DNA of 64,000 nucleotides from Acidobacteriota bacterium (GTDB taxonomy: Bacteria; Acidobacteriota; Terriglobia; Terriglobales; SCQP01), in contig JAKASR010000015.1 in the NCBI GenBank assembly GCA_021818955.1, positions 1-64,000 of the forward strand. The letters are read 5' to 3'. Of the stretch, positions 8,744-34,028 are shown in pieces (the stretch's first letter is position 1; each line of letters begins with the position of its first letter). The notes under the pieces were generated by a model, which was not told the DNA's origin, ran no database searches, and was given only the letters and a program-made list of their open reading frames with translations. The position numbers and the translations under genes were made by a program.

Positions 8744-9637
8744 GTGCATAAACATGGCCTCAGCCCGGAGCGGGAAGACCGCATTTTGCGATGGGCGGCA
8801 GGAGCCACGCTGGCGTATGTGGTTTTAGCTTTCAGCGCCGGCCTGATTGGCCACTCCCTCGCGCTGATCTCCGAAGCGGGCCACAACCTGGCCGACTTTC
8901 TGGCGATTGCAATGAGCTGGCTGGCGGTTTTTTTGCAAGCCAAGCCCCCCACCACCAGTAAGACATTCGGTTATCACCGCGCCGGCGTACTCGCCGCTTT
9001 CCTGAACGTGCTGTTATTGGCGGCGTTGACTTTGGGCATCGTGATCAGCGCCATCGAACGCTTCGGACACCCGGAAACACCCGCGACCGCGGCGATGCTG
9101 GTCGTCGGCGGTATTGGCGTGCTGATGAATGTGGGTATTGCGTTGGCCTTGCATCACGACCGTAGCGATGTCAATATTCGCGCCGCCTTTCTGCATATGG
9201 TCGGGGATGCGGTTTCCACTGCGTTGCTGATCCTGGCCGCGCTCGCCATCCAATGGACCGGACGTTCATGGTTCGATCCGCTGCTTTCGCTCGTGATCGC
9301 CGGCTTCATCGTCTGGTCTTCCTGGGATGTCTGGCGCGAGACGGTCAATATTTTGCTGGAAGGCACGCCGCGCCATATCGCTGCGGAACAAGTCAGCGAT
9401 GCGATCTCGCGCCTGCCTGGAATTTACAGCGTGCACGATCTGCATCTCTGGAGCCTGGGTTCAAACGCGCACGCGCTCAGTTGCCACATTGCCATTGCCG
9501 ACCTGCCGTTATCGGAAAGCCGTCCCATACTGGAGTCGGTGCAGCGGCTTTTAGCGGAACGCTACCAGATTCACCACGCCACGATTCAATTCGAAAACGA
9601 ACTCTGCGTTACATGCGACGGCTGTCACATTCGTTAA
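8744..9637 (+). CDS. Cation diffusion facilitator (Zn/Co/Cd efflux)
   Basis: A 297-residue inner-membrane metal/proton antiporter of the CDF family, CzcD/ZitB-like. Six membrane helices are followed by a C-terminal cytoplasmic metal-binding domain. The transport-site ligands are present as HNLAD in helix 2 (His47, Asp51) and HMVGD in helix 5, the pattern expected for zinc. The C-terminal domain has the usual VHDLHLWSLG segment with histidines. The tail CVTCDGCHIR adds three cysteines and a histidine, an extra potential metal site. The start is taken as GTG at 8744 because the family N-terminus begins just before REDRILRWAAG; it is not fixed by a strong Shine-Dalgarno. Confidence 0.92.
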   Translation: MHKHGLSPEREDRILRWAAGATLAYVVLAFSAGLIGHSLALISEAGHNLADFLAIAMSWLAVFLQAKPPTTSKTFGYHRAGVLAAFLNVLLLAALTLGIVISAIERFGHPETPATAAMLVVGGIGVLMNVGIALALHHDRSDVNIRAAFLHMVGDAVSTALLILAALAIQWTGRSWFDPLLSLVIAGFIVWSSWDVWRETVNILLEGTPRHIAAEQVSDAISRLPGIYSVHDLHLWSLGSNAHALSCHIAIADLPLSESRPILESVQRLLAERYQIHHATIQFENELCVTCDGCHIR

Positions 9638-16248: not shown

Positions 16249-16471
16249 AAAGCGTTAACGGCCGAATCGGACAGCAGTTTTCGTCATTGGCAATTTCGGG
16301 GAAATTGCCTGTAGACATGCTCGCAGGCCGGGTTTGCGCAGGGTTCCCGTTAGGTCCCGCGCCTATAAACGACATTAAACTTTCGGCATCCATGAGTGTT
16401 CGCCAAGCATCCGGCTTCGGCCGGACGTTTGTGAAAGCGTCAGCGCCTAAAAGTAAAAGCGGCCGTGCCGC
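16249..16471 (+). repeat. Dispersed structured repeat, copy 2 (full length)
   Basis: Same 223-bp length and orientation as copy 1. The first hairpin keeps both arms (GGCAATTTC and GAAATTGCC) while its loop changes from GAA to GGG. The second is TCCGGC(TTCG)GCCGGA. It fills the divergent gap between the rhamnosidase and the HAD gene. Confidence 0.85.
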
Positions 16472-16559
16472 CTTGCGCGGAGGATATGGTTTTTTTGCTG
16501 TTTCTCTTCAGCTTCCAAAGGCGGCGGTTCGCCTTCTGTCGCCTGTCTTCCGACTTCTG

Positions 16560-17586: not shown

Positions 17587-17759
17587 AAAGCTTGAAAACT
17601 TGAGGCGCGTCCGGTGTGGAACAGAATCTTCTCCACCGCGATGGATCAACGCCGTAAAATCAAAGCGGCCGAGCCGCCAGGGAATCCTTTTTATTATACA
17701 TTCCCCTATACTGAAATGTCGTTTCTGCCGGGCGCCGAGGTAAATAAGGAGACGGATGA

Positions 17760-24121: not shown

Positions 24122-24772
24122 ATGGCGCGCGCGCTTCCACCCCGCTCGATGAACTCGATGCTGACCCCGCGGCAAAAGCGGGTGCTGGATTTCATCCGCC
24201 AGTTCATCCGCCAGCGCGGCATGGTTCCCAGCCTGGCCGAGATCGGCGCCGGCTTGAAGTTGAATTCGATGGCGACCGTGCACAAGCACCTGCGCACGCT
24301 GGAAATCAAAGGCTATATCCGCCGCCCCCCCGGCCAGTACCGCGCGATGGAGTTGCTGCCGTTGCGGCGGCCGCCGGCGGAAGCAGAGCCCGGCAGCCTG
24401 CCGCTGGCCGGACGCATCGCCGCCGGCCAGCCGCTCGAGGCCATTCCCCGTCAGGACGCCATTTCACTCGCCGCCATTACCCGCGGCCGCGAGTGCTACG
24501 TGCTTGAAGTGCGCGGCGACAGCATGGTGGATGCGCATATTCTCGACGGCGATTTTGTCGTGATCGAGCCGGTGACGCGGGTGCGCGATGGCGATATGGT
24601 GGTGGCGCTGATTGACACCGAGGAAGCCACGCTGAAGACCTGGTATCGCGAGCCGGATGGAATGATTCGCCTGCAGCCGGCCAATCCGCGCCTGCAACCG
24701 ATCCGGCTGGAGCCGGGGCGGGTGCAAGTGCAGGGACGAGTTTTAGGCGTGCTGCGCCGCTGCGGAAGGTAA
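24122..24772 (+). CDS. lexA: LexA SOS repressor
   Basis: A 216-residue LexA. A winged helix-turn-helix (LTPRQKRVLDFIRQFIRQRG to VHKHLRTLEIKGYI) is joined to an S24 self-cleaving domain. The cleavage site Ala101-Gly102 (GRIAAGQPLEAI), Ser134 of GDSMVD and Lys172 of ATLKTW are all present with the spacing of active LexA. It should repress DNA-damage genes until RecA filaments trigger cleavage. The start is uncertain; ATG at 24149 or 24158 would give the usual short N-terminus. A short repeat array follows the gene. Confidence 0.92.
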   Translation: MARALPPRSMNSMLTPRQKRVLDFIRQFIRQRGMVPSLAEIGAGLKLNSMATVHKHLRTLEIKGYIRRPPGQYRAMELLPLRRPPAEAEPGSLPLAGRIAAGQPLEAIPRQDAISLAAITRGRECYVLEVRGDSMVDAHILDGDFVVIEPVTRVRDGDMVVALIDTEEATLKTWYREPDGMIRLQPANPRLQPIRLEPGRVQVQGRVLGVLRRCGR

Positions 24773-24783
24773 AAAAAGCCACA

Positions 24784-24914
24784 CCCGTTGTTCCAAGCGC
24801 AAGCCCGTTGTCTCAAAAAACAGCCCGTTGTCTCAACCCTGGAATAACGGGGAAAAGATATTAAAATCAAACAGATAGGCCCCGTTATTCCAAATTTCTC
24901 AGTTGGAATAACGG
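24784..24914. repeat. Array of six CCGTTRTTCCA-like motifs
   Basis: Three direct copies start at 24784, 24804 and 24824, exactly 20 bp apart (CCCGTTGTTCCA once, CCCGTTGTCTCA twice). Then come TGGAATAACGGGG (inverted, 24840-24852), CCCCGTTATTCCA (24880-24892) and TTGGAATAACGG (inverted, 24903-24914). The fifth copy can pair with the fourth (13-bp perfect stem, 27-nt loop) or with the sixth (12-bp perfect stem with a loop of about 9 nt), giving mutually exclusive hairpins. It lies between the convergent lexA and ABC ATPase genes. Confidence 0.85.
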
Positions 24915-25056
24915 AAGATCCTTATTTTTCAATTACTTGCTTAGTTTGAGCTGGTGCCAAAACGGGAAAATCGTTTTTTAGACACAAGTTGTGGCTTTCT
25001 GGAAGTCGGGGGACAGTTTTAAGCCTGCGGAAGCTACCAGGGGAAAGCTCAGGGAA

Positions 25057-25749
25057 TCAGCGGGGAAATCCGGGCGGCTGGATAGCGGCCAAGTCAGGCG
25101 CGATTTGAGCCCAGCCGCCCGCGGCCGTGATGCGGCCGGCCTGGAGCAGCAAAACCTGATCGGTCATTTGGGCCAGAGCGGGAAGGCGATGATCGGCGGC
25201 CAGCAGGGTCCAGCCCCAGCGGCGCTTCCAGTCAAGCAGCGCCGCGATGATGGCTTGTACGCGGGCCGCGTCCTGATCGGCAAAGGGTTCATCCAGCAAA
25301 AGCAACGGCGGGCGGCGGGCCAGGGCGCGCGCCAGCGCGACACGGCGGGCTTCGCCGCCGGAGACTTCCGCCGCGGGCGCGTGCCAGATCGGCTCCAGTT
25401 CCAGCCGCGCGCGCAGTTCCTCAATCCATGCGGAAGCGGCGGGCCGCGCGCGGCGATCGAGCCCGAAGCAGACGTTGCCGGCGACATTCAAATGGGGGAA
25501 CAAGCGTTCATGCTGCGCCAGCCAGCCGAGCGGGCGGCGGGCCAGGGGCAGCGGCGGAGGATGGAGCGCCAGCCCGCGCCAGCGAATGACGCCGCGATCG
25601 GGAGGTAAAGCGCCGGCAATACAAGCCAGCAGCGTGCTTTTACCCGCGCCGGAGGCGCCGGTCACGGCCAAGCTGCCGCCTTCCGGCAGGCGCAGCTCCG
25701 CCCGCAGTTGGAAATGGCGGCGGTGTTTTTCAATCCGGAGTTCGAGCAT
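25057..25749 (-). CDS. modC: Molybdate/tungstate ABC transporter ATPase
   Basis: A 230-residue ABC ATPase. Walker A GASGAGKST, signature VSGGEARRVALARAL and Walker B LLLLDEPFAD are intact, followed by an AADHR H-loop. It is short and lacks the C-terminal TOBE domain of typical ModC; the TOBE domain is found in the operon's regulator instead. It energises uptake through the adjacent permease. ATG at 25749 is chosen; a GTG at 25764 directly after the permease stop is possible. Last gene of the operon. Assignment to molybdate or tungstate rests on neighbours. Confidence 0.82.
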   Translation of the reverse strand: MLELRIEKHRRHFQLRAELRLPEGGSLAVTGASGAGKSTLLACIAGALPPDRGVIRWRGLALHPPPLPLARRPLGWLAQHERLFPHLNVAGNVCFGLDRRARPAASAWIEELRARLELEPIWHAPAAEVSGGEARRVALARALARRPPLLLLDEPFADQDAARVQAIIAALLDWKRRWGWTLLAADHRLPALAQMTDQVLLLQAGRITAAGGWAQIAPDLAAIQPPGFPR

Positions 25750-25764
25750 GGCGGCAATGCCCAC

Positions 25765-28490: not shown

Positions 28491-28880
28491 TCAGCGCATG
28501 ATCATGACTTCGGTGGCCTTGATCAAGGCCAGGGCGGGCACGCCAGGCTCGAGGCCCAGTTCGTCGGCGGCTTCGCGCGTAATCACGGCTTGAATTTTCT
28601 GATCGCCGATGGATAGGGTCACTGCCGCCAGCAGGCCATCGCGTCGAACTTCGGCCACGATGCCGCGCAGCTTATTGCGCCCGCTGATCTTGCCCGCAGT
28701 CCCCCTTGCGGCGGAAACAGCAGGCGATTGGCCGCGCAAGCGCTCCAGCTCGGATTCGTGGATACGGTAATGTCCTCCCGGAGTACGAGTAGCCTTCAGC
28801 TTGCCACTGTAAATCCAATGCTTAAGCGTGGGGTACGAAATCCCCAATTCCTGAGCGGCTTCGGAAGGTTTCTTCATCAT
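28491..28880 (-). CDS. HTH-TOBE molybdate-responsive regulator
   Basis: A 129-residue protein with an excisionase/MerR-like helix-turn-helix (KPSEAAQELGISYPTLKHWI, then YSGKLKATRTPGGHYRI) at residues 4-48 and a C-terminal TOBE/Mop domain (residues 65-127, RNKLRGIVAEVRRDG onward, VTLSIGDQKIQAVITREAA). TOBE domains bind molybdate or tungstate, so this likely senses the oxyanion and controls the operon that it heads. ATG at 28880 or 28877. TATCTT lies 5 nt upstream and two AGCATAAA repeats sit just beyond it, a plausible self-operator. Confidence 0.85.
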   Translation of the reverse strand: MMKKPSEAAQELGISYPTLKHWIYSGKLKATRTPGGHYRIHESELERLRGQSPAVSAARGTAGKISGRNKLRGIVAEVRRDGLLAAVTLSIGDQKIQAVITREAADELGLEPGVPALALIKATEVMIMR

Positions 28881-33839: not shown

Positions 33840-34028
33840 GCGGCACGTCCGCATTTACTTTTAGGCGCTGACGCTTTCGCCAAGGTCCGGCCGAAGCCGG
33901 ACGCTTTGCGAAAACTCATGGCTGCCGAAAGTTTATTGTGGTTAATAGGCGCGAGACCGATCCGGAACCCCGCGCTTCGGCCTGCGATTTCGGAAGAAAA
34001 CTGCTGCCCGACTCAGCCGTTAACGCAG
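33840..34028 (-). repeat. Dispersed structured repeat, copy 3 (inverted, shortened)
   Basis: Minus-strand copy. It lacks about 34 bp, including the first hairpin, but keeps the second as GTCCGGC(TTCG)GCCGGAC, now with full pairing, and most of the rest. It lies between pgpA and the dehydrogenase gene. Confidence 0.8.

Follow-up and report, generated by a model that had tools for sequence, protein, structure and literature searches.

An array of sites between lexA and modC

In the window, i.e., the whole 64,000-nucleotide stretch of acidobacterial DNA analyzed here, lexA (positions 24122–24772, plus strand) and a gene for a ModC-like ABC transporter ATPase (25057–25764, minus strand) converge on an intergenic region of 284 bp (24773–25056). 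The LexA protein is recognized by its Peptidase_S24 and LexA_DNA_bind domains. Beside the molybdate transporter genes, the small product encoded at positions 28491–28880 (minus strand) combines a MerR-like helix-turn-helix with a TOBE domain and is probably a molybdate-responsive regulator. The lexA-modC intergenic region contains an array of short sites, with both genes lying outside it.

A sequence-only reading of this region had described six copies of CCGTTRTTCCA, the first three direct and the last three alternating in orientation. All six sites are found in the window sequence, spanning 24785–24914. Site 1 (24785–24795; CCGTTGTTCCA), site 2 (24805–24815) and site 3 (24825–24835) lie on the plus strand with a period of exactly 20 bp. 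Site 4 (24840–24850, minus strand) is inverted with respect to site 3, site 5 (24882–24892) returns to the plus strand, and site 6 (24904–24914) is again on the minus strand; these last three all read CCGTTATTCCA. The proposed consensus is exact at four of the six sites but has two mismatches at sites 2 and 3, which carry the GTCT form CCGTTGTCTCA. The motif GTTNTNNCA fits all six and is the better description. A possible seventh site, weak and decayed, lies at 24922–24931 on the plus strand, where other copies of the array have approximately GTTATTTCA or GTCATTTCA. The alternative pairings that had been proposed for site 5 are both perfect, with site 4 over 13 nt (24840–24852 with 24880–24892) and with site 6 over 12 nt (24882–24893 with 24903–24914).

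A simple tandem repeat is ruled out, Tandem Repeats Finder giving no row across the array. Loose single matches to the motif (up to two mismatches) are about as frequent in the window as expected by chance (28 vs 22.7). Hence, the signal of the array is not in single matches; it is in their clustering, their spacing, and the presence of copies elsewhere.

A dispersed family with fixed geometry

The sites are far from randomly frequent in the window's genome (3.8 Mb in 47 contigs). The motif CCGTTNTTCCA occurs exactly 49 times, vs five for a reversed control, and the inverted site-pair pattern, with any allele allowed, occurs at 23 places, vs none for the reversed control. There are 40 exact matches to CCGTTRTTCCA, 36 of them inside copies of the element described here and four outside. 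Queried with the window array, blastn finds 13 places in this genome, the window itself included, and a sequence-only model of 126 positions, built from 12 places, finds 14 strong ones. The window copy matches this model over model positions 6–122 (24772–24897, plus strand; 82 bits, E 6.8e-23), a score to be read with the window sequence being one of the 12 behind the model.

Four of the 14 strong places are contig ends (C8, C34, C24, and C27) that share one common sequence; in our reading they stem from two nearly identical copies at which the assembly broke. The total would be about 12 copies, ten with both flanks and two at contig breaks, as counted in a fragmented draft assembly. These counts omit three weak model matches, C15:27265, C39:41455, and C28:43068, possibly diverged relatives that carry a different site. 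At C28:43068–43150 (E 0.004), CCGTTCTGCCA stands in place of CCGTTATTCCA, and at C15:27265–27360 (E 4e-5) a degenerate form of CCGTTCTGCCA does so; these two are perhaps another subfamily, in which the sites have changed together.

The element is ~130 bp long and non-coding, and its copies lie in unrelated intergenic regions. With the G of site 1 taken as zero, the site offsets are 0, 20, 40, 61 (inverted), 95, and 124 (inverted). This set recurs unchanged in seven copies that have both flanks (C29a, C29b, C29c, C12a, C12b, C22, and C41) and in the contig end C24. A seventh site at offset 138 is present in several copies and is usual for the family. The spacing places one inverted pair within 28 bp (12+4+12), and the second inverted pair has a 12-bp gap. 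In many copies, site 1 is preceded ~60 bp upstream by a palindrome like GTCAAAATATTTTGAC. The window copy keeps the first four offsets, followed by 97 and 125. It is slightly decayed, with small length changes, and appears to be truncated at its 5′ end against the lexA stop codon, since lexA coding sequence occupies the side where many other copies have the upstream palindrome. In C43, one 20-bp unit is missing. The right half of C43 (L053, about 1590–1730) and of C45 (L044) differs from that of the other copies, with tandem palindromes like GTTGACTTTATCAAC where the second inverted pair would otherwise stand, which hints at a modular element.

The sites occur in two forms. In the eight copies with identical offsets, the variable positions of the site switch as a block, with 45 of the 48 sites carrying either ATTC or GTCT (p 5e-5).

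Genomic setting and distribution

The genes next to the copies are unrelated to one another. They encode LexA, LysR, AAA_25, BrkB-like, molybdopterin-binding, M29 peptidase, and RpiB-like proteins, glutamyl-tRNA synthetase, alanine racemase, and gyrase A, among others. With such unrelated neighbors, we reject a function tied to lexA or to molybdate uptake. Among the flanking genes scanned, a subset of the total that includes two with no Pfam match, there is no transposase or recombinase. Our own gene calls place five of the ten two-flank copies in convergent gene pairs, the other five in tandem pairs, and zero in divergent pairs; copies mostly adjoin the 3′ ends of genes. The flanks of the ten copies have no terminal inverted repeat in common, the terminal pairs that do occur (9 bp in the window copy and 12 bp in C41) being unshared. 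Likewise, no common target duplication was found across copies.

Other small repeats are present in the same genome. A second dispersed repeat, ~190 bp long, hairpin-rich, and ending in GGCCGTTAACGC, has at least ~40 full-length places with 92–98% identity (40 scored of 490 candidates). The window holds six pieces of it, five of them partial, at 33840–34026 on the plus strand and at 128–262, 40–76, 16336–16472, 16249–16285, and 17646–17679 on the minus strand. Two direct copies with 98% identity (C22:8888–9079 and 9420–9611; L035) flank an array element, and pieces of the 190-bp repeat lie next to the array element in C29a, C29b, C24, C27, and C45 as well, so the two families are often found together. 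Parts of the C41 region containing the 190-bp repeat have matches at many places in the sister species. A third small family is a tandem short palindromic repeat (L037, about 2270–2650) that reads LNFEEIACSM in one frame.

Comparison with a sister species of the same genus (G001) gives two informative loci of the four tested; the genes flanking C12a and C41 are not neighbors there. The order MFS-lexA-modC-modB is retained in the sister species, yet its lexA-modC gap is 16 bp, vs 284 bp here, and the array is absent from it when the sequence is read. Both genes flanking the copy at gltX (C12b) are also kept, in convergent orientation, with a gap of 69 bp vs 253 bp here. Thus, the element is missing at two syntenic loci, an insertion polymorphism between related genomes.

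Broader searches found no further members. A blastn search gave no match in 59 relatives, and neither the repeat model nor the paired-site pattern matched in any of the 13 further family genomes. Across the 297 other genomes of the order that were searched, the paired-site pattern gave one or two matches in six, fewer than the 12 for the reversed control; these are therefore taken as chance. The core inverted-pair pattern matched three times among ~85,000 species genomes (Pseudanabaenaceae, Clostridiales, and Syntrophobacterales MAGs), and we reject these as family members because they look like ordinary isolated hairpins that lack the remaining array. The core pair had no match in viral contigs and copy C12a had no blastn match in phage or plasmid records, on which grounds a phage or plasmid origin is rejected.

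Conservation of the sites and of the DNA between them

The statistics on site conservation use eight copies (C29a, C29b, C29c, C12a, C12b, C22, C41, and C24); they omit C43 and C45 (right half differing or a 20-bp unit missing), the window copy (small length changes), and C8, C34, and C27 (ending inside the element). The mean pairwise difference is 0.108 at the 54 site positions, vs 0.282 elsewhere in the array. When six 9-mers are placed at random, conservation this strong arises with p 5e-5, in a test that avoids the circularity of having selected GTTNTNNCA. The positions of GTT-T--CA are invariant in 36 of 36 cases across the eight copies, a figure that is partly circular since the motif was picked after the sites had been viewed. 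Among C29a, C29b, C12a, and C12b, copies differ from one another at 3–21 of 129 positions, with no difference at any of the 54 site positions. In C29c, five of the six sites have GTCT, and pairwise tests reveal no excess of site conservation for this copy (P 0.13–0.59), because all of its block switches are scored as site differences.

Outside the sites and the positions flanking them, copies differ by 0.32, approximately the difference at 4-fold sites of gltX relative to the sister species (0.36). Judged by this divergence, the copies look old, and the sites within them have not decayed. The combination is our main reason for thinking that the array works, or did until recently, in most copies. 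The same near-equality means that the family may be older than the species split, with subsequent loss in the sister species, although gain in this lineage would be the simpler reading. The two contig-end copies are identical over the 126 core bases compared and differ at 15 positions in the 60 bp upstream, which suggests homogenization, strong constraint, or an assembly effect.

Hairpins and RNA structure

The inverted sites raise the possibility that the element acts as RNA, e.g., as a 3′ stabilizer, a bidirectional terminator, or a multi-copy small RNA, with hairpins of sites 3/4 and 5/6 functioning in transcripts. The position of copies at the 3′ ends of genes is in keeping with such a role, as is folding: z-scores relative to shuffled sequences range from −2.8 to −5.4, and the window copy scores −5.4 and −2.9 on its two strands. 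RNAalifold predicts two inner hairpins within an outer helix, a conserved structure, and in C29c three pairs of the site 5/6 stem are changed on both sides.

The covariation, however, is weak. The RNAalifold covariation term is unfavorable (+1.01). The alignment first used with RNAalifold had one site shifted by a base in some copies, and covariation was retested on a nearly gap-free alignment. This gave five pair changes on both sides, vs 3.2 in shuffles, with 48 of 500 shuffles as high; a single block swap accounts for three of the five, and the covariation score was matched by 17 of 500 shuffles. Moreover, the site 3/site 4 helix is mismatched in six of the eight full copies, and sites 1 and 2, which are unpaired in the predicted structure, are as conserved as the others. 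The two main hairpins have no T-run terminator, and the element has no Rfam match, on which basis a known RNA family is rejected. Given the mismatched 3/4 helix, the weak covariation, and the equal conservation of sites 1 and 2, the mutually exclusive hairpin pair of the sequence-only reading, real as sequence in the window copy, is not what the family conserves. Overall, we consider a structured RNA or RNA-level 3′ signal unlikely. Site-by-site recognition by a protein would explain the pattern better than an RNA fold, since the spacing is fixed, half-sites are conserved regardless of pairing, there are two forms of the site, and covariation is weak.

Possible mechanisms

Our preferred explanation, to which we give a probability of roughly 0.58, is that the element is a lineage-specific, MITE/BIME-like dispersed repeat carrying a fixed-geometry array for a putative DNA-binding protein. 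It would combine two of the three roles first proposed for the window array, protein-binding sites and a MITE-like remnant, and leave aside the exclusive hairpins. Nothing in Rfam or in phage and plasmid records identifies the array as part of a known transposon end. The conserved functional part would be the six, usually seven, half-sites GTTNTNNCA in their fixed layout: two direct sites 20 bp apart, then the 28-bp inverted pair, then the second inverted pair with its 12-bp gap. A DNA-binding protein would assemble into an ordered complex on these half-sites. It would most probably be whichever recombinase or transposase spread the element, and next most probably an architectural protein of the host. 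Binding, movement in the past or present, and the performance of both by one protein are what we infer from the pattern of sites.

A more specific proposal is that the ordered complex comprises two related proteins, one for each form of the site (ATTC and GTCT), and pairs or recombines the ~12 arrays, each serving as a stand-alone recombination or synapsis site. The copies would then form a dispersed family of miniature elements independent of RAYT, in which selection on the binding array maintains function in place. We regard this as a tentative, rather improbable extension.

Alternatively, the array could belong to the host, as a regulatory or chromosome-organizing element (e.g., for titration or nucleoid anchoring) that is selected in place and no longer mobile. 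Conserved sites within DNA that has drifted to approximately the neutral distance between species are unlike dead mobile DNA and would suit such an array, as would the identical core and differing upstream DNA of the contig-end pair. Nonetheless, a host function sits oddly with the absence of the family from all 13 of the other family genomes, the neighboring genes have no common theme, and few single sites occur outside copies (four of the 40 exact matches noted above). We therefore think a purely host-borne array improbable.

A further possibility is a remnant or miniature of a transposon resolution site of the res/irs type, spread with a transposon that has been lost or goes unrecognized. 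The 28-bp inverted pair, the further sites in direct repeat, and the second inverted pair recall such sites; the irs of Tn4430 is described as an inverted core of two repeats with two direct repeats (PMC7157771). The likeness is in layout alone, with no phage or plasmid match for C12a, no common terminal repeat, and flanking genes that, among those scanned, are housekeeping or unrelated and include no cognate recombinase or transposase; this makes a res/irs remnant very unlikely. Finally, chance clustering of a short motif, for which the chance-level frequency of loose single matches in the window might speak, is refuted by the 23 paired-site places with none in the control and by the 82-bit model match of the window copy.

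Comparison with known systems

Three direct sites approximately two helical turns apart, together with inverted pairs, are reminiscent of the iteron and operator arrays of plasmid origins. Unlike these, the element is dispersed in multiple chromosomal copies, and no rep gene was recognized beside them, the nearest candidate being the AAA_25 gene by C29a. We presume that the sites are neither LexA boxes nor DnaA boxes, and the variable ATTC/GTCT positions misfit the latter.

MITEs and other small mobile repeats, such as Correia, RUP, BOX, and ERIC, resemble the element in being short, non-coding, dispersed, intergenic, and lineage-specific. They also share with it a copy number of about a dozen, clustering with other repeats, and the ability to form hairpins (for MITE background, see PMC10969869). 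It differs in that no parent transposon was found, the flanking genes scanned including no transposase, and in that conservation centers on a multi-site array in its interior, not on its ends. Filing the element as a MITE would go too far, MITE-like as its behavior is, because no terminal inverted repeat or target duplication common to its copies was found.

REPs, BIMEs, and REPINs are similar in the alternating orientation of their units and in their location in extragenic 3′ regions, often between convergent genes. BIMEs are described as alternating units in extragenic DNA (PMC2817692), REPs are said often to lie between convergent genes (PMC1525189), and REPs and REPINs are linked to RAYT transposases (PMC3116915, PMC3733652). 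The absence of the element between divergent genes (zero of ten) is in line with this likeness. However, the element has ~12 copies rather than hundreds, it includes direct sites at a 20-bp period, and it conserves an odd 9-bp site instead of a tagged palindrome. By eye, the alignment shows no invariant GTAG or CGTC tag beside the hairpins, with the tag as defined in PMC3733652. The RAYT/IS200 Y1 transposase domain (PF01797) is present in five of 14 control genomes and absent from the window's genome (G000, ~96% complete), so identity with the RAYT/REP system is rejected.

The res sites of Tn3-family transposons and the irs of Tn4430 come close in design, with one short site repeated, a 28-bp inverted core, accessory sites in direct repeat, and fixed spacing. 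The element departs from them in its six or seven sites, its second, wide inverted pair, its many copies per chromosome, and its lack of a recombinase gene or transposon ends.

A limited literature search, made without the motif itself as a query, found no publication describing the family. The usual explanations for small dispersed repeats of bacteria are transposon ends and REP hairpins paired with a RAYT, and this family fits neither. What it conserves is internal, i.e., rigidly spaced half-sites that have barely changed, even though the intervening DNA has diverged to roughly the extent seen at neutral sites between sister species. Identifying the protein that recognizes the array would show how such an element can be spread or maintained without a recognizable transposase.
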